Shown: in pieces, positions 22,059 through 60,945 of the stretch
Position numbering within the stretch: position 1 is the stretch's first letter
Layout of the letters: every line of letters starts with the position of its first letter
IMG/VR virus record: IMGVR_UViG_3300025122_000014
Span: 1-60,945 of that record
Length of the DNA stretch: 60,945 nucleotides
Reading direction: 5' to 3' (one strand)
DNA from: a virus
Notes under the pieces: generated by a model
Database searches by the model: none
What the model was told of the DNA's origin: nothing
The model's input: only the letters and a program-made list of their open reading frames with translations
Position numbers and translations under genes: made by a program

Positions 22059-22070
22059 TAAAAGAGAAAT

Positions 22071-23066: not shown

Positions 23067-23096
23067 AAATATTGTTTAACCTATAAAAAATTACCA

Positions 23097-24104: not shown

Positions 24105-24112
24105 ATAAGGCT

Positions 24113-24571: not shown

Positions 24572-24593
24572 CAGAGAATACACTTAATAAAAC

Positions 24594-24600
24594 TATTTAT
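24594..24600 (+). promoter_or_regulatory. TATTTAT box, candidate phage promoter
   Basis: TATTTAT lies 20 nt before the helicase ATG at 24621. It is the only box of this type inside the replication cassette and one of the ten recurring boxes. Confidence 0.4.
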
Positions 24601-24620
24601 TATTACACTAAAAGAAACAT

Positions 24621-26003: not shown

Positions 26004-26008
26004 AATAT

Positions 26009-28165: not shown

Positions 28166-28624
28166 ATGGCAACAAACGGCACATTTGGTATAAATTTTCC
28201 TTTTCGTGATAGCTCGAAAGGGTATTACATGGAGATGACAGAATCCCCAGAAGAGGAAATACGAGCTGATTTTATCCATTTATTGTTAACTAGGAAAGGT
28301 ACCAGGTATTTTCTCCCAGATTTCGGAACAAGACTATATCAATTTATTTTTGAACCTATGGATAATCGGACTTTTGACGCTATAGAAGCTGAGATTAGGG
28401 ATGCTGTTAAAAAATATATACCTAATTTAAGAATAGATAAGATAACTATTACTCCTGCGGCAGAAGCGGAAGAGACTGAGGGTACTTTAGTCACTACTAA
28501 CGATGATAGGGTATATAGGGTAGCTGGAGCAGGAACCGATGATTATACGGCAAAGGTATTAATAGAGTTCACAATAACGGATAGTGCTTTTGAAACTAGA
28601 GACTTCGTAATAATAAATTTATAA
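28166..28624 (+). CDS. Baseplate wedge protein, gp25-like
   Basis: This 152-aa member of the GPW/gp25 family is the wedge component that seeds sheath assembly at the baseplate. It reads GINFPFRDSSKGYYMEM, then the helix EEEIRADFIHLLLTRKGTRY, then FLPDFGTRLYQFIFEP, which is the family signature loop (usually 'PdfG..l...lfe'). It ends with a C-terminal IEFTITDSAFETRDFVI strand. The length is close to T4 gp25 (132 aa) with an inserted acidic loop near residues 95-105. It sits 1 nt from the gp6-like gene, forming the wedge operon. Confidence 0.92.
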   Translation: MATNGTFGINFPFRDSSKGYYMEMTESPEEEIRADFIHLLLTRKGTRYFLPDFGTRLYQFIFEPMDNRTFDAIEAEIRDAVKKYIPNLRIDKITITPAAEAEETEGTLVTTNDDRVYRVAGAGTDDYTAKVLIEFTITDSAFETRDFVIINL

Positions 28625-28625
28625 G

Positions 28626-30467
28626 ATGGCCGAGAAAAAAATAGCATACACAGAAAGAGATTTTTTAGGGTTAAGAAATGAATTATTAAGATATACTAAT
28701 GATTATTACCCAGATTTAATCCAGAATGCAAATGACGCTTCATTATTTTCTGTATTTCTAGATTTAAATGCTGCGGTAGCAGATAACTTACACTACCATA
28801 TAGACAGAAGTATGCAAGAGACCGTACTTCAATACGCACAAGAAAGGAGTTCTCTTTATAATATTGCTAGAACTTATGGTCTAAAGATACCAGGTAATAG
28901 ACCTTCAGTATCGGTAGTAGATTTTAGTATAAATGTTCCAGTTAGGGGAGATAAAGAAGATGCTCGTTATTTGGGTATTTTACAAAGAGGTGCACAATGT
29001 AAAGGGGCTGGACAAGTTTTTGAAACAGCGAATGACGTTAATTTTGCGTCCCCATATGACGCAAGTGGATTTCCTAATAGAACAAAAATACCAAACTTTG
29101 ACTCCAATGGTAATATTGTGGACTACACTATAACCAAAAGAGAAGTTGTAGTAAATGGGATTACAAAAGTGTTTAAGAGGGTTATTACAGACTCGGACGT
29201 TAAACCATTCTTAAAAGTTTATTTACCAGAAAGAAATGTACTTGGTGTTGTTAGTGTTATACAAAAAGATGGTAACAATGTACAGGCGTTACCAAACACT
29301 AGTGAATTTATTTCTTCACCAAATAAATGGTATCAAGTGGATGCATTGGTAGACGATAAAGTTTTTATAGTAGATTCTACTAAACCTACAGGTAAAGCTG
29401 GTATAAAAGTGGGTAAACATATAACTACAGATAATCGCTATATCACTGAATATACACCAGAAGGGTTCTTTTATTTAACTTTTGGTGGTGGACTATCTTC
29501 TAATCAATCAACATTAGATGATTTTGTGACTCAAACCGGTTATAATCTAGATTTAAACAAATATATGGACAATATATCTTTAGGACTAGCTCCTAAGGCT
29601 AATACTACTCTTTTTATACAATATAGAGTTGGTGGTGGAAAAAATACTAATTTAGGTAACAATGTTATTAATGTATTAGGATTATATAATTTTGCATTAA
29701 ATGGTCCCAATAACAACATCAATAACTCTGTAGACAATTCTTTAAAGGTTACAAATATAACAGCGGCAATTGGGGGAGCTAATATGCCATCAATTGAAGA
29801 AGTAAGAAATTATGTATCTTTTAACTTTGCTGCACAGAATAGAGCAGTAACTATTAATGATTATATTGCTCAAATAAGAAAGATGCCTAGTGAATTTGGG
29901 GCACCAGCAAAAGTAGGAGTAGTAGAAGAAGAAAATAAGGTGTTAGTTAAATTATTGTCTTATACACCAGAAGGAGCATTAACTTCAAGGGTTCCCAGTA
30001 TTTTATCACAAAATGTAGCAGATTATATGTCTGACTATAGAATGTTAAATGACTATATATCTGTAGGGTCCGCTGAAGTTATAGACCTAAGGCTAGAAAT
30101 TTACCTATATACAGATAAAGGATTTAATCAAGGGCAAATAGTGACTAATGTAATTAATACTACAGCAGAATTCTTCCAACCAACCAAAAGAGAATTAGGT
30201 CAAGATGTTTTTCTTGGTGAATTATCCAAAGAATTGGCACAATTAGATGGTGTAATCAATATAATTGATATAGAGTTATATAATGAATTGGGTGGACAAT
30301 ACTCTGATTCACAGGTTTCACAACCCTATTCTAATAGTGTAACTAGACAAATTAGTCTAATAGACCAAACTATCTTCGCTCAACCAAATCAGACTTTCCA
30401 GGTTAGATATCCAGATAAGGATATAGTGGTTAGATTAAAAAATCCTGACCAAACTAATATATCGTAA
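28626..30467 (+). CDS. Baseplate wedge protein, gp6-like (baseplate J family)
   Basis: This 613-aa wedge protein forms the ring that holds the baseplate together. It starts KIAYTERDFLGLRNELLRYT, then DLIQNANDASLFSVFLDLNA and YHIDRSMQETVLQYAQERSS, the characteristic N-terminal segment of T4 gp6-like proteins. The J-like core includes NMPSIEEVRNYVSFNFAAQN and RAVTINDYIAQIRKMP (usually 'R.vt..Dy...i...') followed by VVEEENKVLVKLLSY. The length matches T4 gp6 (660 aa). It follows gp25 directly, as in many contractile systems. Confidence 0.9.
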   Translation: MAEKKIAYTERDFLGLRNELLRYTNDYYPDLIQNANDASLFSVFLDLNAAVADNLHYHIDRSMQETVLQYAQERSSLYNIARTYGLKIPGNRPSVSVVDFSINVPVRGDKEDARYLGILQRGAQCKGAGQVFETANDVNFASPYDASGFPNRTKIPNFDSNGNIVDYTITKREVVVNGITKVFKRVITDSDVKPFLKVYLPERNVLGVVSVIQKDGNNVQALPNTSEFISSPNKWYQVDALVDDKVFIVDSTKPTGKAGIKVGKHITTDNRYITEYTPEGFFYLTFGGGLSSNQSTLDDFVTQTGYNLDLNKYMDNISLGLAPKANTTLFIQYRVGGGKNTNLGNNVINVLGLYNFALNGPNNNINNSVDNSLKVTNITAAIGGANMPSIEEVRNYVSFNFAAQNRAVTINDYIAQIRKMPSEFGAPAKVGVVEEENKVLVKLLSYTPEGALTSRVPSILSQNVADYMSDYRMLNDYISVGSAEVIDLRLEIYLYTDKGFNQGQIVTNVINTTAEFFQPTKRELGQDVFLGELSKELAQLDGVINIIDIELYNELGGQYSDSQVSQPYSNSVTRQISLIDQTIFAQPNQTFQVRYPDKDIVVRLKNPDQTNIS

Positions 30468-41000: not shown

Positions 41001-44000
41001 ATGGCTAAGGGAGAGAACAATGAATTAAGGCCTGGAAATGGAGCAGGCACATTTAGTGATTATCTAGTAGGTAATCAATATGTGACAGGTACCCCACAAT
41101 TCACATTGGGGAATTTTTCTGTTACTGATTCTGTGCCCACCAAAGACGACCGAGACTTTAATTTAGGTAGTTTCTCCGAACCAATTACTTTAAGTACTCT
41201 TAATATAGAATCTGTAGAAGAATCATTAAAATTAGTTTCCAATAGATTAGAAGTATTTGTAAATTACGATAGGTCTAAAATTACTAATTTTACTCAATTT
41301 GGGTCTCTAAAAGAGAAATTTAGAGTTTCTGTTCTTACCATTCTAAGAAATTTTCCAGCTGTAATACATGTTAATAGAATTGGCCTTAACTTACTTAGTG
41401 GGAACACTAGTAGTGGTTATACTTATGACCCTAATGTTAATGAGGCTAGTTTCAGAGTAGGTTCCGCAAGATTAAATAATCCTTTTAATATAGAGTTTAC
41501 TACAAAAGGAAATTTACCCTCTAATGGTGATAATAGAATTAGTGAATATCGTAACTTAACAAAAAAATATACGGATTATGTTATTTCAGTACAAAGTAAT
41601 AATTACCCAATCCTATCATTTACACCACCAACAGCTTCTACTGACAGTAATTTAAGTTTTATAGTGAAAGGAAACCCATTCAGTGGGGCTAGTAGTGTTA
41701 CCGCTACTACTTTGATAGACTACCAAATAAAACTTTCTGAAACTAGAATAGAAGAAGTATTCAATTCATTGACGGAGGTAGAACAATATCTCTTAAGTAG
41801 AGACACAGTTCCAAAATACACATCAACCTTTCAGATAAAGAAAACTTCCGATGATGGGGACGTTATAGGAGCTACACAATTAGTAACTTGGCCAATGCAG
41901 GACGATTGGAATATTATGATATCCGGAGCTACTTTTGGGGCCTATTTAACTTCTTTATATGATATTGGGGACGCATTAGATAGAGAAAAAACTAATCTTA
42001 TTTCTAGATTTTTAACTACTGCGGCATTAAAGGAATTTGATACACCAGAACATAAAGTAGAAAAGGTATTACAACTTTATGGTAGAAGTTTTGATGAGGT
42101 TAAAAAATATATAGAAGGATTAGCTTACATGAATAATGTAAGTTATAGTAAACAAGATAATGTACCAGACGCTCTACTAAAGAATTTAGCTCAAGTTATT
42201 GGATGGAAAACACCATCCGCAATTAGTGAAGATAATTTCTTAGAATCTGTTTTTGGGTTAGAAGCTAAAAAAGAAGACCCATTATATGCTGGAGAGGTTA
42301 GTAACAAGACTCCAGCAGAGTTAGATATAGATTTATATAGAAGATTGATTTTAAATACCGCCTATCTATTTAAATCTAAAGGTACAAGAAAAGCTATAGA
42401 ATTTATGTTAAGATTTATTGGTGCTCCAGAAGCATTAATAGAATTTAACGAACATGTATATGTTGCAGGACAACGTATTAATATGAGTAACTTTAATACG
42501 ACCTGGGGTAAAATGTCAGGAGGAACATATGTTCAAGAGATACCGGTAAGGATAACAGGATTTACCGCTACACAACCAGGAACTGTAGCACCTTATATAC
42601 CTACAACTATAAGTGGTTATACATTTGGTACAAAATCATTAGTATCGGATATCCCTTATGGTAGAAAAGATTTTCCTGTTGACGACCAAGGATTCCCAAT
42701 TGTACCACAAGTAGGGACAGATAGTTGGTTCCAAGCTGGTGCAGGATGGTTTGAACAAACTTTAGAACATAGAGGGAGAAGAATAACAGATTTTACTAAG
42801 TCTGTATTTACAGGTAATACACCTACAGTTAAAACTAAATTAAATGCATTTACCTACGGTGAACCTTATTTAGAAAGATTTAGAAGATTTCCGTCTATGA
42901 TGGATGGATTTGATATAACTAGAACTGTAGATAATAAAAAATCTTGGGTGGAAGAAAAAGACACATTCCAAACCAGATACTATAGTTTACGTGATAGAGG
43001 AACAAAATATTTTACAGATGACGAGAGATTGGTCATGAATGTTAAGAATGTAGAATTATTCATGAATGTAGGTCAAGGGCTAGAATGGGATGTTTGGAAC
43101 TATTCAAGAAAATACGGTTGCCCATTTGGTCTTACCGCATTAATATCTCCACCATATCCAGGTTTAGGGGGTATAGATGATACGGAAGTTAAAATAAACG
43201 CTTCCACAATGAGTTTCTTTGAATTTGCATCACAATTCTATAAGATTTTAATAAATGTTAAAAATCGTTTAACTATAGATGATGCAAAAGGTGGAGGATA
43301 CCCTACTTTACAAAATGTTTATGATGATTATATAAACAATTATTTGGTGACATGTGGTGTAAAAAGCAGCCAATACACCTACCAAAAAATGATAAATTAT
43401 TGTGAAAAGATTGGTGATTATTGGGTAAGATTGATGGAACAATTTATACCAGCTACTACTATTTGGCAAGGTGGTGTAAGATTTGAAAATTCTATTTTTC
43501 ATAGATATAAATTCCCTTATAAACATGAACCTTTATGTGATGATATACCATGTCTAGGTTCTTGGGTAGAATGTGCAAGACCACCATTATACGATACATT
43601 AGCTAATCATTGTTATATTTGTGAAGATACATTATCAGCTAGTACAGGATACACAAACTGGACCGCTAATATACAAATAAACAATCAAAGTTATACTAGT
43701 GGAGTCTACTATACTAGTACTGGGTGCACAGACCCACCACAAACCAGTTATTGGTTTAGTGCTATGACAGGCATGCTACAAGGAATCCAAGGAAATACCG
43801 CAGACCCAAACTCAGGACTTACATATTATGTTATAGACACCACCACTGACAATACGATTGACCTTGATGGTGATGGCACACCTGACATTTATTTAAATAA
43901 CCCAGATTCTATTCTAATACAAGGTCCTTGTAGTGTGGCAGGGGAAGATTTATGGAATTTTAACAATGGTTCGGACCCTCACACTTATAATAGTTGGCAG

Positions 44001-47000
44001 AATCTTTTTGAAATAGATTGGAATACAACCGGTTCCACAACTGCATATACCGCTATATATAATTTTGCCTTAGATACTGGAAACACACCGACATATACCT
44101 TAGTAAGTGGTTGGGATTTAAGAGCACCAAACGCATCTACCACAAACGATACACCTTTATTCCCACCACCTTCAGTAATAGATGGAGGAGGAATCTCAAC
44201 TTGTTGGAATTGTCCGGGAACAGGAATGACAGAAGGTACCGTTCATTATTGTGTAGATTGGGGATTCACTGGTTGTACTGGTACTACTAGTGCTTATTCA
44301 GCGACTACTAGTTGGTCCGGAATTACCGGAAATACATTTATACAGAGTGCTACCACCTGGAATTGTGGTGAAGATAATAGACCAGATTTATTAGCCAACC
44401 AATACGGTAGTATGTGGGGTTATGACACCACTTTATTCGTTAGTGGCATTACCGTTTCATACAACCAAAACAATGTATCCTTTTCAGGAGCTATGACGGC
44501 AACCTCTATAGTTTATAGTGGTGTTTGTTGTGAGACTAATCATGCTGGTTGTGGTGGTTGGGAAGAAACACTTACAGGAAATACTGTATGTCCATGTAAT
44601 ACAGTCACTGGAACATATCCAGTACAATCTCCACCAGCAACAGCCCCAACAAGTATATCGTCAACTCCTACCCAAGGGGACTTTGTGGATTGGTGGCAGG
44701 AGGGGTATTGGAATAATATATACGACCAAGGATATAATGTATTAATTAATGTAGATTTTGGTAGTCCGGGTCCTATTCCTGGGTGCTACCAACTCACTAC
44801 AGGACTTGGAGCTTTAGGACTTTCAGATGCTCAAATGATATTAACTTATTATTGGAAACAAATACCATGTAGTGCTACGACAACAAATTATACAGTACCT
44901 TTTGACGGAGGTAATAATCTTTGGAAAGCTCAGGATTGTAAAGATACTACTACTATACCTGAAAACCCACCAGCGACTGGTACAACAACAGCAACAACAT
45001 ATCCAGAAATATTTAAGGATGGAATTTCTAATATAGGAGGACAAGCATGTTATCAGGTTTATTATCCTTGTCCTGAGTGGCAAGACCCTTGTGCATGTCC
45101 ACCAGCATCATTTTATTGGGATGATTCACTTCCTAATGGTTGGAACCCGAGGGTTATGGTACACAACCAAGTTATGCCTGGTGAATGTGTAAGTTGTTGG
45201 ACCGGGGACACTAGTATTTCTTTTATTAATACTTCAACTATATATCCATGGGTACTATGGGGGCAACAAACACCTTATTCACCAGGCGGGCCTTTTGGAG
45301 CTATATACACTCCTGGTAGTAATTGTCTCGCGGGTTGTTTTGGACAACATGTGATTCATGACCCAGTAGGAGGACTTGGATTTTGTGATAATGTGGCAGC
45401 AGCTCAAGCTATGACGAATTGTGTAAATAGTTGTTCTAAGTATAATTTGGAGGTATGTGACACACAAATTGCTAAAAATCTTAAGATGGGCCCTAACCAG
45501 GGGGTACCAGCTAAAATCACACAAACTAATCCAAGAGATTCATTCAATCCATGTGACCCTGTCGACCCACCAGGTGAGGAAAGGTGTATATGTGACCCGG
45601 CTACAGCTTTGGGAACTCTTGACCAGACAGCTGAATTAAGTATCAGTTTTAATAGGGTAAGCTCTGGTTTGGTACCAGCTGAAATTATGAATATGCCCGA
45701 TTATGGGCCTAACTCACAAACTATTGGTGGTTCTACCTCAAGGTCAGCTCCAACGTACAAGTATGTCCAAGGTGGGGTACATGACGCAGCTGTTGCAAAA
45801 ATTTCACTATGTTGTTTAGGTCAATATTTTGGATGGCAATCTAGTGCATATAACGCAAATGGTTCTTTTGGTGAAATAGCGACTATATCGGCTAGTTTAA
45901 AAATGGACGAACAGTCATTTGTAGAATTATGGTTAATAGGTGGAACTCAATCGAACATATTTAGTTTAGATTTTAATGATACCCATCCATCAAAGATGAG
46001 GAACCAACTATGGATGCTAGTACCAGATGGTACAATAGATACTATGCAAGTGATAGATTATAATTACTGGGTGCAATGGATGACACACTCTTCAGGGAGT
46101 GCTGGTAATGTAGTTTTAAATCAAAAAATACCTATCAGAATAGGTTCAGTAGACTCCTCATCGGACCTATACCAACTTGATAATAGTTATGAAGGGGTGT
46201 ATGGTATATTTGGAATGTCTAATCATATAGATGTCTTAAATGGTTCAGTGTTTGGTATGCCTACAAACGATATGAGTGAACCTTACTGGTATACCGGTTA
46301 TTATTCAAACGGTGGTTGCGGTGGTTGTGGTGGTTTTCCTGGTAGTTCGAACTATGAACTATTTCACTGTAATAGTGGGAATAATTCCAGTGCAGAAGGA
46401 GCTGCAATTGCACAAATGTATGCTGGTCTAAATGTGGGAGGACCCTATTCTACAGGTAGTGTTTTATGGGAAACCAATAGTGGGCCTGGTAGTGGTTTGG
46501 AACCACCAAATGAAAATTGGGGGAACCCAATGGGAGTAAATCATGGAGGGTATGGTTTAAGGCTATATCCTTGTTGGTATACACGATTTGAAGCTAGTTG
46601 TATTGCACAAGATGATTCATCCCAAGTTAATTTGGGTAATATATTATTTTATCCAATTGATGAAGGAACCCCAACACTTATGACTCAACCAGAAGTAGAT
46701 GCTATTATACCTCAAAGTCCATGTCCTGGTGGTGGAGTTAGTCAACAGATGGCTAGAACTTTACAATCGTATCTTCCACAGGTTTTTGAATCTGCAGAAC
46801 CTTTGGATATAGCTTTAAGTGAAGGTGGAACATTTGAATTTGATTATAAGGTGTTTTTAGAGGATAAAATGCCTTTATATCCTGAAGACGCTTTTGAGAT
46901 AATAAGTTCGGAACCATATATTGTAATGAACAGTAAAAATCTTAATACAGGGACAAAAGATTTAAAATATAATAATCCAGATATTAGAACCAGATTCGGC

Positions 47001-49181
47001 CCAGAAGAGTTCCAAACATTCACCAAAGACGGTAAAATAGAATACCAAGTTGGTTGGAGAAAAGAAATAGTTAACGAAAATAATGCTCAATTTATAAAGT
47101 TTGCAAGTATTAGTCAAAGAGATGATTTTGAAAAATCATTAAAAGAAAAACAAATAGCAGGAATAGAGGCATACACTTTATTCACACATCCAAACGAATA
47201 CCCTATTAAATGGGAATCAGCTTTACAATGGGCAGAAAGAAGTATAGGTAACCCATGGTTTAGTAATTGCACCATACATACCGCTCCTGATGGTAGTTTT
47301 AGTGGTATAACTATTAGACCAGATTCCTTCTATTCTTTGGAAGAAAAAGGTAATGCTTATTATGTACCTATTAATGACCCAGCAACTGAAATAGTCGGTA
47401 CTACTTGGTCGAGTTGGCCACAATTTATAGCGGATAAATCAGGATTTACTCACTCATATACTGGTTATACCGATTATACATTATCTGGTACTGAAACAAC
47501 TCAGATGTTTGATTTATACTTTAGCTATAGTGCATTTACTGGAAATACATTGGTACCTTTAAGTGATAAATCACCACTAGATGGCCAGTTAATGGGTATA
47601 GATGATATTAAAATTAGAGCCGCGATATTCCCAGAATCTCTAGGATGTAATGGTGGACCAACAGACATAAACACTACTGAAGGAGGTATTATATATGCAC
47701 CTACCAGAGACGGCAAGTATAGAATACAATTTAAAGCTGTATTAGATGTAAAATATGAGGATACTTCTTGGTGTGACTATGTTAATAGATTTTATAAAAA
47801 AGAAGGATTAGATTACTCGTACCCTTCAAACGATTATGAATATAAAGAATTAATAAATTCTGCCATAATTCTTAAAGGGGGTAGAGTTTTAAATCCGGTG
47901 ATTGACCCATCATATCCTAAACTCTTAGAAGGTAAAGTATCTGACAAATATACTAATACAAATCCTTATTGGCAAAGTAATCCAGCTTTTGGTTATAATA
48001 TTGGTGGTATTAACGATTTCTATTTTAGAATTTATCTAACAAATAATAGTGGACAATCAGAAACAGTATTAACTGAATATACTGTTACAACAAGTGAATT
48101 AGTTCGTTCTTGGGCAGACGATTTCTTAACTTATGATTTATTGGAGACAGATAAAAAGATTAACACTATGAGTTGTTCTGGTTCCACATCTCAAATACTC
48201 CATAAATCTTTTGACGTTAATTTAGATACTGGACCTATTTTGTTAAGTGGTGATACTGACGTAATAAGGTTAAAATATGAAGCGTACTGGTCTTCTAATA
48301 TAAAAGATACTGGGTCAACAAAAACATGTGCATTTAAAGTTAATTTAGGTAGAAAAGAACCTACAAATTCTGAAGATGCATCTTCTCCATGGATTAGAAT
48401 TACTAGACGACCTTATGATTTACCTATAATTGATAGAGAAATTATTTGGAAAAGAGACGCAAAAGGAAAAACTAATATTATAACTACTCCTAGTGGAGAA
48501 CAAAAAGATATATCGAGTACAGGACAACTTTATATAAATACAGATGAGAAATTACCGGCTTACTCTAACCCTAATGGGTTTATATCTATAACACCAAAAA
48601 ACTTTAATAATCAGACGTTCCTTGACATACCAAATAAGGGATATTCAGGACCTATGGTATTAGAAAAGAAACCAGGAAGAGCTACTAATTTATGGTCTTA
48701 TACTTTATCTAATGAGTATATAAAAAATACACCAAAAATAACTGACTATTATATAAACGCAGGAAAATCTATAGAGTGGAAAGATTTAAAAATAAGATGG
48801 AATTTACCATATCAAGACAAGTCTAAAACAACTGAGAGAAGTGTTTTCCCAAGCACGGATAACTCGTATGTTATAAAAACAACATTTAGGGGTAAATTAC
48901 AAAAAGGTTCTACATTTGACCATTTTATTGTTATGAATTCATCTGAAAATGATTTTACTGATAGAGATAATTTTACTGTGGATATACAACAAAGATTAAG
49001 AGGAAATTATAATAAAACAGTTACGATTGCACAACCTTCACAAGATTGTGATAAGAGGGTATACTTAAGTTCAGAACGCATTGTTATAGATGGTAAATTT
49101 GCTAATATTAGTACTACCGGATATAATTTAAATAAACCCAATAACACACCTATTATAGGTACTAGAAGAAAATTAAAATAG
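41001..49181 (+). CDS. Giant baseplate/tail protein with gpI-like N-terminal region
   Basis: At 2726 aa this is the largest protein in the window. Residues ~340-485 match the phage tail protein I (P2 gpI-like) pattern: VLQLYGRSFDEVKKYIEGL, then LLKNLAQVIGW, then the diagnostic YRRLILNTAYLFKSKGTRKA and IEFMLRFIGAPEALIEFNEH. gpI-type proteins join the wedge to the fibres. Downstream is a region with GYTFG and YGCPFGL segments, then a Cys/Thr/Gly/Trp-rich region (about 840-1560) with many short CxxC-like pairs, then beta-rich domains to the C-terminus with no recognised enzyme. The fusion makes this the likely scaffold on which the adhesins downstream assemble. Confidence 0.8.
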   Translation: MAKGENNELRPGNGAGTFSDYLVGNQYVTGTPQFTLGNFSVTDSVPTKDDRDFNLGSFSEPITLSTLNIESVEESLKLVSNRLEVFVNYDRSKITNFTQFGSLKEKFRVSVLTILRNFPAVIHVNRIGLNLLSGNTSSGYTYDPNVNEASFRVGSARLNNPFNIEFTTKGNLPSNGDNRISEYRNLTKKYTDYVISVQSNNYPILSFTPPTASTDSNLSFIVKGNPFSGASSVTATTLIDYQIKLSETRIEEVFNSLTEVEQYLLSRDTVPKYTSTFQIKKTSDDGDVIGATQLVTWPMQDDWNIMISGATFGAYLTSLYDIGDALDREKTNLISRFLTTAALKEFDTPEHKVEKVLQLYGRSFDEVKKYIEGLAYMNNVSYSKQDNVPDALLKNLAQVIGWKTPSAISEDNFLESVFGLEAKKEDPLYAGEVSNKTPAELDIDLYRRLILNTAYLFKSKGTRKAIEFMLRFIGAPEALIEFNEHVYVAGQRINMSNFNTTWGKMSGGTYVQEIPVRITGFTATQPGTVAPYIPTTISGYTFGTKSLVSDIPYGRKDFPVDDQGFPIVPQVGTDSWFQAGAGWFEQTLEHRGRRITDFTKSVFTGNTPTVKTKLNAFTYGEPYLERFRRFPSMMDGFDITRTVDNKKSWVEEKDTFQTRYYSLRDRGTKYFTDDERLVMNVKNVELFMNVGQGLEWDVWNYSRKYGCPFGLTALISPPYPGLGGIDDTEVKINASTMSFFEFASQFYKILINVKNRLTIDDAKGGGYPTLQNVYDDYINNYLVTCGVKSSQYTYQKMINYCEKIGDYWVRLMEQFIPATTIWQGGVRFENSIFHRYKFPYKHEPLCDDIPCLGSWVECARPPLYDTLANHCYICEDTLSASTGYTNWTANIQINNQSYTSGVYYTSTGCTDPPQTSYWFSAMTGMLQGIQGNTADPNSGLTYYVIDTTTDNTIDLDGDGTPDIYLNNPDSILIQGPCSVAGEDLWNFNNGSDPHTYNSWQNLFEIDWNTTGSTTAYTAIYNFALDTGNTPTYTLVSGWDLRAPNASTTNDTPLFPPPSVIDGGGISTCWNCPGTGMTEGTVHYCVDWGFTGCTGTTSAYSATTSWSGITGNTFIQSATTWNCGEDNRPDLLANQYGSMWGYDTTLFVSGITVSYNQNNVSFSGAMTATSIVYSGVCCETNHAGCGGWEETLTGNTVCPCNTVTGTYPVQSPPATAPTSISSTPTQGDFVDWWQEGYWNNIYDQGYNVLINVDFGSPGPIPGCYQLTTGLGALGLSDAQMILTYYWKQIPCSATTTNYTVPFDGGNNLWKAQDCKDTTTIPENPPATGTTTATTYPEIFKDGISNIGGQACYQVYYPCPEWQDPCACPPASFYWDDSLPNGWNPRVMVHNQVMPGECVSCWTGDTSISFINTSTIYPWVLWGQQTPYSPGGPFGAIYTPGSNCLAGCFGQHVIHDPVGGLGFCDNVAAAQAMTNCVNSCSKYNLEVCDTQIAKNLKMGPNQGVPAKITQTNPRDSFNPCDPVDPPGEERCICDPATALGTLDQTAELSISFNRVSSGLVPAEIMNMPDYGPNSQTIGGSTSRSAPTYKYVQGGVHDAAVAKISLCCLGQYFGWQSSAYNANGSFGEIATISASLKMDEQSFVELWLIGGTQSNIFSLDFNDTHPSKMRNQLWMLVPDGTIDTMQVIDYNYWVQWMTHSSGSAGNVVLNQKIPIRIGSVDSSSDLYQLDNSYEGVYGIFGMSNHIDVLNGSVFGMPTNDMSEPYWYTGYYSNGGCGGCGGFPGSSNYELFHCNSGNNSSAEGAAIAQMYAGLNVGGPYSTGSVLWETNSGPGSGLEPPNENWGNPMGVNHGGYGLRLYPCWYTRFEASCIAQDDSSQVNLGNILFYPIDEGTPTLMTQPEVDAIIPQSPCPGGGVSQQMARTLQSYLPQVFESAEPLDIALSEGGTFEFDYKVFLEDKMPLYPEDAFEIISSEPYIVMNSKNLNTGTKDLKYNNPDIRTRFGPEEFQTFTKDGKIEYQVGWRKEIVNENNAQFIKFASISQRDDFEKSLKEKQIAGIEAYTLFTHPNEYPIKWESALQWAERSIGNPWFSNCTIHTAPDGSFSGITIRPDSFYSLEEKGNAYYVPINDPATEIVGTTWSSWPQFIADKSGFTHSYTGYTDYTLSGTETTQMFDLYFSYSAFTGNTLVPLSDKSPLDGQLMGIDDIKIRAAIFPESLGCNGGPTDINTTEGGIIYAPTRDGKYRIQFKAVLDVKYEDTSWCDYVNRFYKKEGLDYSYPSNDYEYKELINSAIILKGGRVLNPVIDPSYPKLLEGKVSDKYTNTNPYWQSNPAFGYNIGGINDFYFRIYLTNNSGQSETVLTEYTVTTSELVRSWADDFLTYDLLETDKKINTMSCSGSTSQILHKSFDVNLDTGPILLSGDTDVIRLKYEAYWSSNIKDTGSTKTCAFKVNLGRKEPTNSEDASSPWIRITRRPYDLPIIDREIIWKRDAKGKTNIITTPSGEQKDISSTGQLYINTDEKLPAYSNPNGFISITPKNFNNQTFLDIPNKGYSGPMVLEKKPGRATNLWSYTLSNEYIKNTPKITDYYINAGKSIEWKDLKIRWNLPYQDKSKTTERSVFPSTDNSYVIKTTFRGKLQKGSTFDHFIVMNSSENDFTDRDNFTVDIQQRLRGNYNKTVTIAQPSQDCDKRVYLSSERIVIDGKFANISTTGYNLNKPNNTPIIGTRRKLK

Positions 49182-53029: not shown

Positions 53030-55519
53030 ATGAGTTACCTAATAAAAAGCACTTCAGGGTTGATAGCCGTTCGATTAACCGATGCGGGCAGAAAGAGATT
53101 GTCACAAGGACAGCTTAATTTTTCATTATTCCAATTAGGGGATAGTGAAATGTGTTATGACTGTTACACTAACAGTTTACCCCAATCCTCAGGAATCAAT
53201 ATACTAAGACCAGAATATAACGCACAGAATATTTCTAATTCTGCGAATGAACGAAATAAAGCACATGTAAAATATCCAGTACCTATTACGGCCCAACAAA
53301 GTGGGTCAACCTATGGGTTACTTACACCCGCACATGCCGAAACAACGGTATATAATAGAGCAAAAACTAGAGGATTTTTTAGTTCTACTACAACTACAGA
53401 AGGTAGTGAATACAGTGCATTTACTAATTCTACTTATGCTCATTCTTCTGATTGGTGTTTTCCAGTTTCCGCGATGACAGGTGGTACATATATTACCCTA
53501 CTAAGTGGGGTAACTAACTGTAATGACTCTAGTACCTATTATCCACAACCTGGTGATTTCTTATTAGTACAATATGATGGTCTATTTTCTGCTAATACCC
53601 CATGTTGGGACAGTATGTTACCATTCGATATAACCCAGGCAAATCCTTATCTATGGTATCAATTTATGTCAGGAGCAACCTCAGCTAATACCGCTAGTCA
53701 GTTTGCTAGTGGTGGTAATTTAACAGGGACTCAAATTTATCTTCCAGTTGGTGATTACCTACCAAATTGGGCATCAACTGCTGGCGGTTCAGGTGTGCAT
53801 CCATACTCAGCGAGTGTAAATTCTATTTTTTGTGTTAATACATTAATAATACCTTCTGGACCAATGAGTAATTATTATGGTGCTACTACACCAGTACCAT
53901 ACTGGTCTCCAGGTTCATTAACATTTGAAAATAATTGTGACATTTCTGTTGCGGATGTTTCCATGTGGAATATGAATATAAACTGGACGGAAACAGTGGC
54001 CGGTGCAGATACTAGTACATATGGTAGTGTAGATACCTATGGTTCAAGTGGTTATTGTGGAACCAAAGAATATCTAGGGTATAATAGTAACTCTGGACAA
54101 TTTGATACCACACAACAACCAGATGATTATTATCCATCAATTATTTCCGGTACATATATTAGAGATTCTTTCAGTAAAGTGAGAGCAGTTCTACCAGAAG
54201 ACCAAAAATGTATAGCAATATTACATTATACCAACCAAACTATATCTAATTTCTATGGTGAGAAATTTGCTATGGAAGTAGCAGGGACTCAGTTAAATGG
54301 ATATGGTGAAGCTAAGAATTTTAAGATTTGTATACCTTGGTTAATGTGGCATAAGAAAATAACCGCTAGTGCGGCTATAAATGCTTCTGTCCCATACGAC
54401 CCTAGCACAGGATTGGGTGACCAATGTGAGATAGGACAATGTTTTTGGGTTGACCCACCAGGATTCAATGTGTTTAATGAAGTAGGGGTACAATATATAC
54501 AATCTAACCCTAATCCGGACATGAATGACCCAGGATTAAGATATTATCACTTATGGGATAATAATCCAGTACAGAATTTAACAGGTGAGAACTCAAAACC
54601 AAACAGAGTAGGTAAAGTTTGGCCAGACTTTAAAATAATTACTTTTGATGATGAGGAAATATGTGCAGCTTTAGATATGAAATCTAGAAGAAATTGGACA
54701 CTCCCAATGCCAAAAGTAGAGTTAATAGAACCAGGAATCAATTGTGTTGGAGGAACCTTAGGTGGTGTAATAACAGACCCACCAATGATAGCAGCACAAA
54801 AACAATTATATGTTACATATCAATTACAAAACTTATCTGGTATGACTACAGGATTACATTGTAATTACTATAACATTATGAGAGGTTTAGATACAACTAT
54901 GGGTAACAGAGACATTTCAGTACAATTTGGTGCAGAATTTCCATATTTAAGACCAATTACAATGACCGCTTGTACCACATCTATGTCAGGTACAGGATGG
55001 CAGGCTCATACTTTAAAGATACTATATCAGATAACAGCCTTAGGAGATAGACCATCACCAGACCAATGGTTGGATGTTGATGTTACAAATCAGATAGGTG
55101 GTACACACACTATCGGTCTTCCTATTGAAGCTAAAAATTTAGTTACAGGTACAGGTAGCTACATACTAGGGGAATGGAATACTAGTGCGGCTACATACTA
55201 TAATTTACATGATTATATAAACATTCCATTAAACAATAGCCAAGAACCAAATCTACTACAGTTTGGTGACGGATACTTTTTCTTCGGCAACTTAAATTCT
55301 GATATAATGGCTACGATATATGAAATGAGATATCATGTTACATTAAATTCTAGTCAATTTGTTACATCTTTAAACCCAACGTGGAGCTCAACAAATAAAG
55401 TTAGAGTTACCGAAATAGGGTTATTTGATAATAACAAAGATTTATTAGCCATAGGAAAACTTAAAAGTCCACAAACAAGAATCGGTTCACAGCAATATGT
55501 TATCAAAGTTGACTTTTAA
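53030..55519 (+). CDS. Tail adhesin 1 of a three-paralogue cluster
   Basis: This 829-aa protein has an N-terminal module (about 1-50) reading LIAVRLTDAGRKRLSQGQLN and then FSLFQLGDSEMCYDCYT. It shares the pattern LTxxG[RK]...F.LGDsxxxY with the next two genes. The rest is Ser/Thr/Tyr/Gly-rich and beta-like with scattered cysteines, followed by a C-terminal domain containing YQLQNLSGMTTGLHCNYYNI and IYEMRYHVTLNSSQ, ending in KVRVTEIGLFDNNKDLLAIG. That end resembles phage fibre proteins in which a 'E.GLFD.....A.G' motif precedes the terminus. A receptor-binding or structural tail role is inferred. It ends 3 nt before the next gene. Confidence 0.77.
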   Translation: MSYLIKSTSGLIAVRLTDAGRKRLSQGQLNFSLFQLGDSEMCYDCYTNSLPQSSGINILRPEYNAQNISNSANERNKAHVKYPVPITAQQSGSTYGLLTPAHAETTVYNRAKTRGFFSSTTTTEGSEYSAFTNSTYAHSSDWCFPVSAMTGGTYITLLSGVTNCNDSSTYYPQPGDFLLVQYDGLFSANTPCWDSMLPFDITQANPYLWYQFMSGATSANTASQFASGGNLTGTQIYLPVGDYLPNWASTAGGSGVHPYSASVNSIFCVNTLIIPSGPMSNYYGATTPVPYWSPGSLTFENNCDISVADVSMWNMNINWTETVAGADTSTYGSVDTYGSSGYCGTKEYLGYNSNSGQFDTTQQPDDYYPSIISGTYIRDSFSKVRAVLPEDQKCIAILHYTNQTISNFYGEKFAMEVAGTQLNGYGEAKNFKICIPWLMWHKKITASAAINASVPYDPSTGLGDQCEIGQCFWVDPPGFNVFNEVGVQYIQSNPNPDMNDPGLRYYHLWDNNPVQNLTGENSKPNRVGKVWPDFKIITFDDEEICAALDMKSRRNWTLPMPKVELIEPGINCVGGTLGGVITDPPMIAAQKQLYVTYQLQNLSGMTTGLHCNYYNIMRGLDTTMGNRDISVQFGAEFPYLRPITMTACTTSMSGTGWQAHTLKILYQITALGDRPSPDQWLDVDVTNQIGGTHTIGLPIEAKNLVTGTGSYILGEWNTSAATYYNLHDYINIPLNNSQEPNLLQFGDGYFFFGNLNSDIMATIYEMRYHVTLNSSQFVTSLNPTWSSTNKVRVTEIGLFDNNKDLLAIGKLKSPQTRIGSQQYVIKVDF

Positions 55520-55522
55520 ATT

Positions 55523-57868
55523 ATGGGGTTTCTTGAATTTCAAGGTGAGTATCAGTTAGAGCTTTTTTTAACCGACAGAGGTAAACAAAAGATGATGGAA
55601 ATGAACGGCAAGGGGTTAGCAGACCTACTTGGCGGTTCAATCCAATCCCCTTCTGGTATACCTAATGGTGATGGGCATTTTTATTTATCTGATAATGATT
55701 TTGATTACGAAACTACACTATACGAACCATGTGAACCTGTAGTGTCACCTTGGATACAAGGAAATCAAGGTTATACGGGGTTAACTGGACCACTAGCTGA
55801 CGCACAATCTACACCATCAAATAGAATGCCTTGTTTCTTTCAAATGCCAGATGTGAGAGGCCAAAGATATTTCACAACTAACCATTGTACGTGGTATACG
55901 GGTGAGACTGCATTGACAGGAATGAGTCTTACTACTAATGTGTATGTTTTTTATGACCAAGTTACGTCATACACGGACTACTACGATATATACAACACAC
56001 CAAAGACTTCACCTCCACACTTAGCTGCACAAGCACACTTTTATTCAGCAGCTACCGCTTGGTTTACAACTTACCAAGCAGCAAATCCTGCCTATCGAGG
56101 GAAGATATATCACTTTGTGATGGACGACGCAAAAGAAGATAATACAATACCTGACACTTATGGAGGACATGGTAGATATTTGAGATGGGCTGCCTTCCCA
56201 GCGTATGGAATATTAGCTGGTGTTAAAAATAGTCCACCACCAGGTAGAGTAGACGCAGCCGGTACGAACTTAGCCTTGGCCGGGTTTTGGCCACCAGGTT
56301 CTAATTGGGTCTCAGGGGACGGAACAGGTATATTAGAAACAACAACACCAGATAATGATATATTTTGTATATTCTTTATGGGTAGTTCAGAAAGTTATGC
56401 GTCAGATGGTTACGGTATTCCGGCACTTGGTGCTCCGTTGGGAGTTGCAACGGATTGGACCGGTTTAGACATGCAAGCAGGATTAGGAAATAATTACCAA
56501 CAAGACTGGGAATATTTTGCAGGAAAGTCAGCAAATAATTGGACAGCTCAACAAACTGAATGGGCACAAGGCAATACATCTTTATATGTTGAAGGTGAAG
56601 GGGCTTTAGATTTTTATAGAAATACACCAACATACTCGCCAAACTCAGCACGAGGAGGATTTATAGGTTTAATATTCCCTATTGCTACTACTGGAGGAAC
56701 AGGGTGTGGCCAATACTCTAGTTTTAATTTACATGTTTATGGAGCACTAGAAGCAGGAAATAGTTCTGGTAATGGAACAGTAACAGCACCAAATACAGAT
56801 AATCCAAATCTATGTGTAGATTATGGTGCTTTAACTATTAGTAATCCGTATTATAGTAATGATTTAGAGGGCCCAGGAAACCTCCCAGGACTTAAAAATT
56901 TAGGGTTTGTAGCAGATTTAACACAATCTTTTTCTACTAATGGTACAGCTTGTAGTCCATCATTTTCAGCACTGACAGGGTCCAATTATACTTTTGGTTT
57001 TGGCGCCTCAACAGTACCACAATTCCTTCCAACTAATCCGTTATCTGCTAATACCCCATTTATAGTAGATACGTTTACTGGGACAAGTAATTTTAATTTC
57101 TTGAATCAAGCTCTTACAGGCTCTACTACCGGTAGAACAACTATGTTCATATCTACCGCTTGTACAATATGTTATTGCTTACCAGCAGTATTTAGACAAA
57201 GTACTTGTCCACCAGTAACTACAGTATCCACCACTATAGGACCACCATGCCCTAATCCACCATGTGACCCAGACCCAGAGATTGTTAGGTTATGTGATGG
57301 TAGTACTTATAGTACCGGAGGACAAATGGCAGCGGGGCCTATACAAGGACCAGTACAACCAGCCGCACCTATGTTACCTCTTGACCCTTTACAGTTACCA
57401 GGATGGGTGTTAGGTTATGAAGATTGTATGGAGTTAGAGATAGTAATGCAAATGATGCCAGTAGCTTATTTATCTCGTAACGTGGGAGCTGAAAGAATAG
57501 ATTATGATATAGAATTAAATGCTATAATCCCTAAGAAAAATCCTAAAGATAGTTTGTCTTATTATTGGTTGATGGAAGAATCACTAGTATATGATTATGA
57601 AATGAAACAATATATAACTAGACCATGTAAGGATTTAAGTATAGGTTATATTATGGCGAATGGAGGTAAAACATTAGATAAAAGATTTTATTTAAATGAC
57701 CTAAGAAAAAAGATAGATGACGAACATTATTGGCAAAGGGATGTGGAAGAATTTTGTTTATATTGTGTTGTCAACTATAATAATCAACAACTTTTAACCA
57801 AAAAAATGAGAATAAGAGTAAGTGGAGATGATGAATATGGATGGAAGTTCAATATAAAAGGAAGTTAA
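55523..57868 (+). CDS. Tail adhesin 2 of a three-paralogue cluster
   Basis: This 781-aa protein opens MGFLEFQGEYQLELFLTDRG and continues with KQKMMEMNGKG; after a ~20-residue insert comes HFYLSDNDFDYETTLYEP. This is the same N-terminal module as its neighbours. The large middle is Gly/Thr/Ser/Asn/Pro-rich, like a surface adhesin. A Pro/Cys-rich linker near residues 565-595 (CPPVTTVSTTIGPPCPNPPC) precedes a C-terminal domain of different character (LEIVMQMMPVAYLSRNVGAE, YWLMEESLVYDYEMK, FNIKGS) that looks compact and charged. No enzyme motif is visible. Confidence 0.76.
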   Translation: MGFLEFQGEYQLELFLTDRGKQKMMEMNGKGLADLLGGSIQSPSGIPNGDGHFYLSDNDFDYETTLYEPCEPVVSPWIQGNQGYTGLTGPLADAQSTPSNRMPCFFQMPDVRGQRYFTTNHCTWYTGETALTGMSLTTNVYVFYDQVTSYTDYYDIYNTPKTSPPHLAAQAHFYSAATAWFTTYQAANPAYRGKIYHFVMDDAKEDNTIPDTYGGHGRYLRWAAFPAYGILAGVKNSPPPGRVDAAGTNLALAGFWPPGSNWVSGDGTGILETTTPDNDIFCIFFMGSSESYASDGYGIPALGAPLGVATDWTGLDMQAGLGNNYQQDWEYFAGKSANNWTAQQTEWAQGNTSLYVEGEGALDFYRNTPTYSPNSARGGFIGLIFPIATTGGTGCGQYSSFNLHVYGALEAGNSSGNGTVTAPNTDNPNLCVDYGALTISNPYYSNDLEGPGNLPGLKNLGFVADLTQSFSTNGTACSPSFSALTGSNYTFGFGASTVPQFLPTNPLSANTPFIVDTFTGTSNFNFLNQALTGSTTGRTTMFISTACTICYCLPAVFRQSTCPPVTTVSTTIGPPCPNPPCDPDPEIVRLCDGSTYSTGGQMAAGPIQGPVQPAAPMLPLDPLQLPGWVLGYEDCMELEIVMQMMPVAYLSRNVGAERIDYDIELNAIIPKKNPKDSLSYYWLMEESLVYDYEMKQYITRPCKDLSIGYIMANGGKTLDKRFYLNDLRKKIDDEHYWQRDVEEFCLYCVVNYNNQQLLTKKMRIRVSGDDEYGWKFNIKGS

Positions 57869-57908
57869 TGTCAATTTAGTGAAATATAATTGGCTAACAA
57901 AATAATTA

Positions 57909-57916
57909 TATAAATA
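57909..57916 (+). promoter_or_regulatory. TATAAATA, T4-late-promoter-like site
   Basis: TATAAATA (the T4 late promoter core) lies 11 nt before the ATG at 57928 in a 59-nt gap. It is the reverse complement of the TATTTATA seen at other lead genes, so it is either a variant or a chance AT-rich match. Confidence 0.3.
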
Positions 57917-57927
57917 AGAAAACGAAT

Positions 57928-59601
57928 ATGGGTTTTATTACAAGTGCAACAACAGTTTATTTAGACTTACATACTACAGAGTATGGTAGGGAATTTTTAT
58001 TGCAAGGAGGTCTAGGTGACAAAATAACAAAGTTCACATTAGGTGATTCAGATACAGATTATAAAAACACTACAAACCCGTTACCTACAGGATATGTTCC
58101 TGATGTAACAGGAGCACATAACGATTGTATATTTGGTGTTAATAATGGTTTTGAGATAAAATATAAATTAGAATATATTACTGGAATGAGCTCAGCTTTA
58201 GACCAAGCTGCAACACAAAGTCATATGATGTTTATGTTCTTAGATAACCAAGGAAGTAAGACGTACAGTAAGGGGGCTAATGTAGAGGTTTATATGCATG
58301 ATTTAATGGTATTGTATAAAGCATTCTCTCATGCACAGGCAAAATATCAGACCTGGAGTGGATTCTCAGCTAAAACTTATGAAGACTGGTTTACAACAAC
58401 TACTGATAGTGAAGGGTTTAGTATAGGTAGAGATATGGCGAGTCTATATTATAAATTAGCTGATATGGGTAGAGATTTCTACTTAGACATTTATGACGGT
58501 ATTGTTTTACAAAGAGGTGGTATGTTTGAACACACCAACATTAAACTTGTACCAGAAACACCTAAAGATTTAGCTATATTTAAAAAATTAACAGGAGCGG
58601 CAGTAATAGAACAAACCGGTCAAGCAGGGAGAGCTGATTTTTATAAAGGTGCAAGAATCGGTTTACAAACTAAGACCACCATTCGTTCACCATATTCTTT
58701 AACAACTTCATCTGCTTATGATGAAAATGGTAGAGTTTTTGCGGGAGCAGGCCCTTTTGGTATAGCATTTGGTTTACAGGAATATGGATATATTGTAGGT
58801 GATGGATTAAACCCACAAGACACAAGTTATACAAACTATGGATTCTCTAATGAAAAAGGAGGGTTCTACCAAGGTATATATGTAGAAAACGATACGAATG
58901 CTAGAAATTTAGGAGAATTTAATAATGTAGTTCCTGCAGCAAGAATAGCTACTGATAATAAATTTGGATATTATTATCCTCTAAATCCTGTTAAACAATT
59001 AAATGTTAGTGTGAAAAAGAATGTGTTTAGAGCAACTCCACAATCACATTTCGATGGAACCACCCTAACCCAATCGTCTTCTGCATTAGAAACTTTCTTA
59101 TCCTTTGCTGCTGGAACAGCGGAGTATAGAATAGGGACACCTAGTGCGGGATACGATAAAACTTTATCTGTGAACTGGGTAGATAGTTCTACAGAACCTT
59201 ATACAATGTTAACACGACATTATGACTATATGGATTCGTTCTTTACCGCTTTAAATAGTGATTCAGATGTAAGTAATTCTATAACTTTAAGTGGTGGAAA
59301 TAACAACTATAACATAAACTTTAAAATGAATTTATTAGCATACTCTACAGACTTTCCAGATGTCACACCAGCAAGAATAAGTGTGACGTTCATTTTTGAT
59401 AAAAATGCTATGAAAGAAAGTGTCGCTTGGGATTACTCCACAAATACCAAAGCAGCACGATGGAGATTATTCGGTAACACCAACGTTAGATTCTATGGTG
59501 AAAACTATAAGGATTTATCTGGTGGCAATTATGCTGTGAGTCCATTAAATAACACAAATGATGCAGGTGGTAGCATCTTTAGAAAAGTTACATTATCATG
59601 A
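57928..59601 (+). CDS. Tail adhesin/fibre protein 3 of a three-paralogue cluster
   Basis: This 557-aa protein opens MGFITSATTVYLDLHTTEYG, then REFLLQGGLGDKITKFTLGD and SDTDYKNTTNPLP. It is the most complete copy of the shared N-terminal module. The body contains a helical part (about 125-190, MHDLMVLYKAFSHAQAKYQT; MASLYYKLADMGRDFYLDIY) and a mixed C-terminus (ARISVTFIFDKNAMKESVAW; WRLFGNTNVRFYGENY). It differs from the other two paralogues in having few cysteines and less low complexity, so it could be a structural adaptor. The stop overlaps the next ATG as ATGA. Confidence 0.76.
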   Translation: MGFITSATTVYLDLHTTEYGREFLLQGGLGDKITKFTLGDSDTDYKNTTNPLPTGYVPDVTGAHNDCIFGVNNGFEIKYKLEYITGMSSALDQAATQSHMMFMFLDNQGSKTYSKGANVEVYMHDLMVLYKAFSHAQAKYQTWSGFSAKTYEDWFTTTTDSEGFSIGRDMASLYYKLADMGRDFYLDIYDGIVLQRGGMFEHTNIKLVPETPKDLAIFKKLTGAAVIEQTGQAGRADFYKGARIGLQTKTTIRSPYSLTTSSAYDENGRVFAGAGPFGIAFGLQEYGYIVGDGLNPQDTSYTNYGFSNEKGGFYQGIYVENDTNARNLGEFNNVVPAARIATDNKFGYYYPLNPVKQLNVSVKKNVFRATPQSHFDGTTLTQSSSALETFLSFAAGTAEYRIGTPSAGYDKTLSVNWVDSSTEPYTMLTRHYDYMDSFFTALNSDSDVSNSITLSGGNNNYNINFKMNLLAYSTDFPDVTPARISVTFIFDKNAMKESVAWDYSTNTKAARWRLFGNTNVRFYGENYKDLSGGNYAVSPLNNTNDAGGSIFRKVTLS

Positions 59602-60077
59602 CACAAGACGTAATTAGAACACTTATAACAGAATTTCCAGATAATCACGGGTCTAAGATATCCAAGATACCTTATTTTGGGGTAAGTCCAATTCCAGATA
59701 CGGAAAAACAGAGACACAGAACTGCGGTATACGATAAAACCCCAGGGGAAGTCATATCAACATATGAACCAGCTAAATATATTTCGGTTGATACTACAAT
59801 TGGTAGAACTGATGTAAAAGGTAAGACTTGGGCTTCATGTTCTAATGCAATTTCGTATAATAATACTAATAAGGCTTTGAACGACCCAAGATACTACTAC
59901 AGGTTTTTCTATCCTTCTAGAGACACGTTAGGGGTGTCAAATAACGGAAATATAGTAGTAGTATCTCTTACTCCTATGAGGTCAACACCACCGACAGCTC
60001 AACAGGCAATCACCCCTACTTCAGCAGGAGGAGGAACGACGAGTTCAGGAGGTATGAGTACGGGAGGAGGCTATTAA
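59598..60077 (+). CDS. Small structural protein with Gly/Ser/Thr-rich tail
   Basis: This 159-aa protein is translationally coupled to the preceding gene (ATGA overlap). The first ~125 residues are basic and mixed (RTLITEFPDNHGSKISKIPY; DKTPGEVISTYEPAKYISVD; YYYRFFYPSRDTLGVSNNGN). The last ~30 are low-complexity Thr/Ala/Pro then Gly/Ser (AGGGTTSSGGMSTGGGY). I do not recognise the family. The flexible Gly-rich end suggests a linker or assembly peptide in the fibre complex. Confidence 0.72.
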   Translation: MTQDVIRTLITEFPDNHGSKISKIPYFGVSPIPDTEKQRHRTAVYDKTPGEVISTYEPAKYISVDTTIGRTDVKGKTWASCSNAISYNNTNKALNDPRYYYRFFYPSRDTLGVSNNGNIVVVSLTPMRSTPPTAQQAITPTSAGGGTTSSGGMSTGGGY

Positions 60078-60102: not shown

Positions 60103-60945
60103 ATGAATTACAAAACAATATATGATAAAAATGTTTACTCTGAAATAGTTCCTTATTCCACACCAAATCCTAATTTGGATGGCTATAATGTTATTAATGG
60201 GAGTACATTAAGATTTACGAGGATACAACGTAGTGCAAGTAATTATAGACCATTTTCACATTTATATTCTTCATTTAATCTGCCTCTAGCAAACTTCCAA
60301 CAAACTAACTGGTCTACTGAGTGGGGCAACACATCTTTATCTGGTTTTAATGTAGATGAGGCTATTGTGGTAGAAATACCTAAGAATCAATATGGTGAAC
60401 TAATAGATGGAAGAACAATAAAATTAACTATCCCTACAGACGGTGCAATTACTAGTGTAGATTGTTATACTAGTTATTTTGATGGGTTAAATGTTTCTTC
60501 TGACCCTAGTATATACGCAGAAGTATTTGGACATACATCCGCTGGAGGTGGTGCAACAGTAGGTTCACCATCAACAAACGTATCTTTCTTATTCTCAGAT
60601 TCTATAAAAGCTCCAACTGACCCTATTATTACTTCTTGGGCTGATAGTTGGACAACCGCTTCACAGCCTTTTGGGTATCCAGATGGAGGCCAATTACAAA
60701 ATTTTGATAATTTAACTTCAGGAGATAAAAAGGCATCAGCTAACCCTATTGGCAATAGTACACAATCACAAGATGAACCGGTTGGTATATGTTATTTAGA
60801 TAAAGGATTTTGTGTTATTACACACCCTACATTAAACAGTAGTTTCCAATATTCAGCAGGTACTAATCTTTATGGTAATACTAGTTATACGGGATATTCT
60901 AGTGGTTTTACTCAAATTTACTTTACTTCTGTGGCAGAATGTTCA
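60103..60945 (+). CDS. Putative tail/fibre protein, N-terminal part (truncated by window edge)
   Basis: The frame is open for 281 codons from ATG 60103, which follows an A-rich leader (AAATTAAAAAAA), to the window end without a stop. The product begins MNYKTIYDKNVYSEIVPYST. It has RIQRSASNYRPFSHLYSSF and AIVVEIPKNQYGELIDGRTI, then Gly/Ser-rich beta sequence with VGICYLDKGFCVITHPTLNS. This last segment resembles 'G.cyld.G..vit' phage structural motifs. Composition matches the adhesin cluster upstream. The function and C-terminus lie beyond the window. Confidence 0.75.
   Translation, partial: MNYKTIYDKNVYSEIVPYSTPNPNLDGYNVINGSTLRFTRIQRSASNYRPFSHLYSSFNLPLANFQQTNWSTEWGNTSLSGFNVDEAIVVEIPKNQYGELIDGRTIKLTIPTDGAITSVDCYTSYFDGLNVSSDPSIYAEVFGHTSAGGGATVGSPSTNVSFLFSDSIKAPTDPIITSWADSWTTASQPFGYPDGGQLQNFDNLTSGDKKASANPIGNSTQSQDEPVGICYLDKGFCVITHPTLNSSFQYSAGTNLYGNTSYTGYSSGFTQIYFTSVAECS

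Follow-up and report, generated by a model that had tools for sequence, protein, structure and literature searches.

In an uncultured marine phage known from the IMG/VR virus record IMGVR_UViG_3300025122_000014 (60,945 bases, referred to here in its entirety as the window), three consecutive genes encode large proteins that share an N-terminal unit of approximately 50 residues. These genes begin at positions 53030 (slot 1), 55523 (slot 2), and 57928 (slot 3) and are followed by two further open reading frames (ORFs) at 59598 (slot 4) and 60103 (slot 5). The explanation that best accounts for the data, and that we consider probable, is that the trio consists of ancient paralogues forming parts of a baseplate rim or tail-fibre network, equipped with a split attachment module of the type found in gpH of phage P2. 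The proteins would then belong to a large contractile-tailed phage, and the shared residues would constitute the first of the two halves of an attachment domain resembling the N-terminal domain of P2 gpH. Slot 1 would carry the second half at its C-terminus, so that its 700-residue body would be inserted within, and held out from, a single docking site, while slots 2 and 3 would supply the first half only and slot 5 the second half only. By analogy, the module would bind the baseplate, presumably at its rim, and we infer that the trio proteins are part of the virion.

The shared N-terminus is documented by profile comparisons. A pooled hidden Markov model (HMM) of the module (37 rows, none from the window or from L003, its sister contig) was compared with the 714 window ORFs of at least 30 amino acids (aa), where it matched slot 1 (expectation value, E, 4.9e-18), slot 2 (2.1e-7), and slot 3 (4.5e-19), with no other ORF better than E 2. 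These matches scored 26-64 bits, compared with a maximum of 8.3 bits among 14,280 shuffled decoys. A common N-terminal pattern in exactly these genes had been proposed in an earlier note made from the sequence alone, and the pooled model bears this out. The wording of the pattern requires revision: the expression LT[DE]xG[RK] occurs in two of the three genes, with slot 3 reading TTEYGR, and the Gly-rich turn listed as a common feature is an insertion confined to the slot-2 proteins of the window and L003. Profile comparisons between slots align about residues 1-50 only, linking slot 1 with slot 3 (E 3.5e-6) and slot 3 with both the short (E 5.7e-14) and the long (E 4.9e-9) slot-2 profiles. Direct comparison links slots 1 and 2 only weakly (E 0.0015 and 0.035), and an HMM built from slot 1 only and run against 2,834 ORFs matched the N-termini of slots 2 and 3 in many relatives as well as window slot 3 (E 9.6e-4), with window slot 2 missing from the matches; thus, the link between slots 1 and 2 runs via slot 3. 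Five profile comparisons between the bodies of different slots all gave E ≥ 0.27, in agreement with the earlier description of the bodies as unrelated.

A second conserved motif is located at the C-terminus of slot 1 (TEIGLFDNNKDLLAIGKLKSP in the window). An HMM of this motif also matches 35 slot-5 ORFs of relatives, and among the trio and slot 5, the pattern is present in slots 1 and 5 only. The likeness of these regions to the N-terminal domain of P2 gpH was tested against a nine-row alignment of gpH-type proteins. The N-terminal module (LT..G...L..A...G...IT..AVGDG) aligned with residues 5-38 (E 1.6e-4), the C-terminal motif (REIGLFD..G.LIAVAN) with residues 80-108 (E 3.7e-7), and both halves placed side by side with residues 7-113 (E 6.4e-5); reversed targets did not reach these scores, and of 150 column shuffles for each half, none equalled the score of the first or the second half. 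As judged from these alignments, the module of slots 1-3 resembles the first half of the gpH-type fibre-attachment domain (Phage_tail_fib/DUF3751, PF12571), and because the second half lies at the extreme C-terminal end of slot 1, the slot-1 body may be viewed as an insertion between the two. DUF3751 is described as a fibre anchor at the baseplate in two studies (PMC6363177; PMC7882524). In PF12571 members such as P2 gpH and the R-pyocin fibres, the domain is contiguous and N-terminal, whereas in slot 1 the halves, which align with it in the same order, are separated by approximately 700 residues and occupy both ends of the protein; slots 2, 3, and 5 each show a single half. Searching 10 records with PF12571 itself yielded four sub-cut-off matches (10.6-13.7 bits), all at profile positions 81-124, within the second half. 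According to frame length, these correspond to one slot-1 protein, two slot-5 proteins, and one second-half protein of Microcystis phage Mel-JY01.

Half-modules are also present in named phages. The N-terminal half was detected in Flavobacterium phage immuto (E 6.4e-11), Microcystis phage Mel-JY01 (E 1.5e-12), and Rhodothermus phage RM378 (E 1.5e-8), in one, one, and two proteins, respectively (one of the latter weakly), and the C-terminal half in two proteins of immuto, five of Mel-JY01, and one of RM378 (plus one weak match, E 0.015). These phages thus contain the same two halves as the window phage, in immuto after the baseplate genes, but in the stretches examined the halves reside in separate genes, and the protein bearing the first half is short (205-219 aa). 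Mel-JY01 additionally shows five tandem proteins of 352-954 aa, each ending in the second half-module (L058:18139-27085). A search of IMG/VR with one immuto protein returned at least 596 stretches, 80 of which were kept (L069-L148). In all 41 immuto-like loci that extend 6 kb or more downstream, one first-half ORF is accompanied by two second-half ORFs (e.g., L069:7986-10754), and in the six loci inspected, both second-half ORFs directly follow the first-half ORF. None of the 80 loci has both halves in one ORF. This one-to-two pattern, together with the distribution of halves between slots 2 and 3 on the one hand and slot 5 on the other, points to the possibility that a half-domain on one protein is completed by that on another.

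Taken further, the idea becomes one of docking in trans, in which lone first halves are completed by the second halves of neighbouring proteins; such an arrangement would extend, rather than oppose, the proposal of a split gpH-type module on ancient paralogues. It would fit the placement of lone halves in adjacent genes, both in the window phage and in the immuto-like loci, as well as the model of slot 3: its predicted local distance difference test score (pLDDT) is 76.9, yet residues 6-95 are mostly below 50, so the lone first half is poorly modelled. However, a first half in diverged form may also be present in the second-half proteins themselves, and the low pLDDT could stem from a shallow alignment. 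We consider docking in trans doubtful, though it fares better than the two alternatives discussed below. The slot-3 model also found no useful Foldseek match in the PDB and none in BFVD at E ≤ 0.001, and of 991 PDB chains compared by VIA-align, 53 reached Z ≥ 2 and none Z ≥ 5.

Several results weigh against our preferred explanation, that of a split attachment module on rim or fibre-network proteins. The C-terminal-motif HMM found no second half at the C-terminal end of either slot 2 or slot 3; thus, a complete docking domain is not established for these proteins. The curated PF12571 cut-off (23 bits) was reached in none of the 10 records, so the module resembles Phage_tail_fib/DUF3751 without being filed as a member. 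Moreover, the AlphaFold2 model of slot 1 is of modest quality (mean pLDDT 65.9), Foldseek returned no PDB match for it at E ≤ 0.001, and the VIA-align Z-scores of 6-9 obtained with it lie near the background stated for the tool, with model ranges that report the first and last aligned residues only. The solved tail, neck, and baseplate chains aligned with this model are themselves counted in favour of the explanation: the top row is a tail chain of HFTV1 (9h4p_BD; Z 9.2, 115 residues, root-mean-square deviation 3.0), followed by the Sf14 neck (Z 7.0), the Bas63 connector (6.9), and the phiKZ outer baseplate (6.6); no gpH structure is included among the rows. In the best rows, the model range starts at residue 1-28 and ends at residue 829, from which we infer that the two ends of slot 1 may come together as one domain in the model. 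The matched chain letters are not mapped in the available portions of the HFTV1 (PMC12494034) and Sf14 (PMC11821841) texts.

The second alternative treats the shared stretch of approximately 50 residues as a generic cap for the assembly or trimerisation of tail proteins, whose likeness to gpH would be convergent or reflect a common beta-alpha-beta arrangement. The first half is indeed short, its gpH match was obtained in one comparison, the slot-3 model has low confidence over the module, and no solved structure was reached by sequence (among PDB sequences, the best module match, E 0.12, was judged to be chance, and slot 1 had none). Nevertheless, a generic cap appears improbable to us, given that the halves match the appropriate parts of gpH in the appropriate order, each above every one of the 150 shuffles, and that all four PF12571 matches fall on the second half.

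The third alternative is that advanced in the earlier note, namely a modular multi-fibre system in which receptor-binding bodies are exchanged freely on a common docking piece, as would suit host-range switching. Slot 1 was found at 51 IMG/VR loci, and with one fragment omitted, slots 2 and 3 lie directly downstream in the same order in 36 of 50; the remaining 14 (L037-L050) are related phages that have slot 1 without slots 2 and 3, with a gene of approximately 200 aa directly downstream instead, which from a motif judged by eye looks RuvC-like. The slot sets omit L001, L052 (a fragment), and L054 (a duplicate of L003), and after near-copy removal the alignments contained 39 rows for slot 1, 30 for slot 3, and 20 and 12 for slot 2. 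Module copies were counted in 20 records (2.46 Mb in total, the longest 297 kb) drawn from the window and 19 relatives, all of which may be fragments: 15 contain three copies and five contain one, and the further copies that the earlier note had suggested looking for were found nowhere outside the trio. In a tree of 101 modules, which has few columns and long branches, the modules cluster by slot; the slot label requires two changes, the least possible, although the slot 3 label by itself already requires two. Module shuffling between slots was rejected on this tree.

The bodies tell a similar story. Those of slot 1 are conserved in 50 relatives, with protein identities to the window of 41-57% (93% in L003), and those of slot 3 align as homologues across 491 columns when clade A is compared with clades B/C (E 6.8e-50, 30 rows). 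Pairwise body identities of slot 1 co-vary with those of slot 3 (rho 0.79) and slot 2 (rho 0.80) across 666 non-independent pairs. Slot 2 differs in that its bodies are not homologous between clade A and clades B/C (E 0.55), while those of B and C are (E 1.7e-6); the proteins measure 425-1145 aa in one clade and 258-337 aa in the others. Because clades A, B, C, and D each form a single group on the slot-1-body tree, the slot-2 type needs only one change. Among 37 sets, this is the one body replacement detected, with none seen in slots 1 and 3, and free body exchange was rejected. The two slot-2 types stay homologous past the module, as far as a motif resembling PD[VxS]RG at about residue 85-115; the break thus does not lie at the module edge, just after which the earlier note had suggested looking for recombination breakpoints.

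On the basis of these comparisons, the trio is an ancient triplication with vertical descent, and a host-range cassette is not supported, since modules cluster by slot, body identities co-vary, and slot 2 changed once on the slot-1-body tree. The multi-fibre alternative can draw on the shared module with unrelated bodies, the clade-dependent slot-2 type, the greater conservation of module than body in each of the three slots, and the existence of such an architecture elsewhere; against the conserved slot-1 and slot-3 bodies, the absence of module movement, and the position of the slot-2 break, however, we judge it unlikely. What endures of the earlier claim is one putative docking module on differing bodies, for which the shared module, its remote likeness to a fibre-anchor domain, and a T4-like baseplate operon upstream of the trio all speak, whereas free interchange and the host-range switching built upon it are not supported.

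The precedent in question is the Ackermannviridae spike complex (CBA120 TSP1-4), where, according to two reports, several tail proteins combine conserved N-terminal assembly domains with unlike bodies (PMC11414711; PMC8825819). The window phage likewise has several tail proteins with a shared N-terminal module. In Ackermannviridae, however, gp10-like XD and TD domains are used and receptor-binding parts are exchanged, whereas body exchange between relatives is rare here, amounting to the single slot-2 replacement. No Pfam or PHROGs family corresponding to XD or TD exceeded threshold in the window proteins, although distant folds could escape such searches.

The slot-2 bodies have features of their own. 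The C-terminus of slot 2 in clade B carries two EF-hand repeats matching Dockerin_1 (PF00404), for example in L017 and L053:12415-13194. The curated cut-off was exceeded in six of 11 records (slot-2 C-termini of one clade), and matches at E ≤ 0.1 were obtained for 14 of 20 short slot-2 proteins (best 2.7e-12); the window has no Dockerin_1 match, and 12 long slot-2 proteins have no Pfam match. Unlike the usual Dockerin_1, the domain here is found on a phage tail-type protein. A structural resemblance has been described for a coliphage spike in a dockerin context (PMC5967307). A phage-borne cohesin was considered as a partner and rejected, as none of 10 phage records exceeded the cut-off, with one sub-cut-off match in the L003 contig. 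Separately, slot 2 of L011 (4704-5978) is 425 aa long compared with 1032 aa in its close relative L030, lacking the centre of the body while keeping both ends; this may be a natural deletion or an assembly artefact.

Table 1. Coordinates of the trio, its half-modules, and associated genes in the window.
Feature	Position	Strand	Description
Slot 1	53030..55519	+	829 aa; half-modules at both ends, conserved body between
Slot 1 N-terminal half-module	53030..53170	+	aa 1-47
Slot 1 C-terminal half-module	55262..55516	+	aa 745-829; contains TEIGLFDNNKDLLAIGKLKSP
Slot 2	55523..57868	+	781 aa; N-terminal half-module, short shared neck, clade-dependent body type
Slot 2 half-module	55523..55717	+	aa 1-65, including the insertion
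Slot 2 neck, to PDVRG-like motif	55718..55867	+	aa 66-115; last part common to long and short slot-2 proteins
Slot 3	57928..59601	+	557 aa; half-module and body homologous between clade profiles (30 rows)
Slot 3 half-module	57928..58077	+	aa 1-50
Slot 4	59598..60077	+	159 aa; small ORF at the same place in listed relatives, without half-module match
Slot 5	60103..60945	+	Cut by window end; orthologues end in the C-terminal half-module alone
gp25-like baseplate wedge protein	28166..28624	+	PHROG 261, E 8.1e-19
gp6-like baseplate wedge protein	28626..30467	+	PHROG 6, E 5.1e-19

The genomic setting is listed in Table 1. After the gp25- and gp6-like genes, a run of large plus-strand ORFs ends in slots 1-3, similar to the T4 gene order after gene 6, where the rim proteins gp7-gp12 are encoded. 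These rim proteins, including gp7, are treated in PMC3004832. In the VIA-align comparison, the slot-1 ends also align weakly with chain BJ of the T4 baseplate structure 5iv5 (Z 6.1), whose 1004 residues fit gp7 (1032 aa), a protein held by that structure; no sequence match to T4 gp7-gp12 was reported for the window proteins. PHROGs and Pfam searches with the seven window proteins between 49186 and 60945 yielded no convincing family. Slot 1 gave no match in INPHARED (tblastn, E 1e-5), and in GTDB genome contigs, profile and single-protein searches gave 31 and 1 pattern stretches, respectively, none of which was confirmed. Window slot 2 had no match in IMG/VR by a search that also missed its sister L003. 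No paper named in the literature search concerns these contigs. Elsewhere in the window, a 2726-aa ORF occupies 41001-49181, its first 1433 residues lacking a PHROGs match, and SSB-, UvsX-, exonuclease-, DnaB-, and ribonucleotide-reductase-like genes for replication and nucleotide metabolism lie beside the tail genes at 21195-27937.

Collectively, these analyses connect a known attachment domain with tail proteins that lack annotation in environmental phages of a widespread group, and they show the two halves of the domain to be distributed in a fixed arrangement among separate, neighbouring genes. They also advise caution, as the sharing of an N-terminus by proteins with dissimilar bodies does not in itself amount to evidence for host-range switching. 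A bolder and rather unlikely proposal is that different gene products each contribute a part of the docking domain, such that the pairing of halves determines the set of proteins seated at the baseplate and their proportions, with slot 1 being self-sufficient and the first-half protein of one clade displaying a dockerin-like EF-hand pair outward. If the halves do pair between proteins, a tail rim of several components could be assembled by a simple rule.

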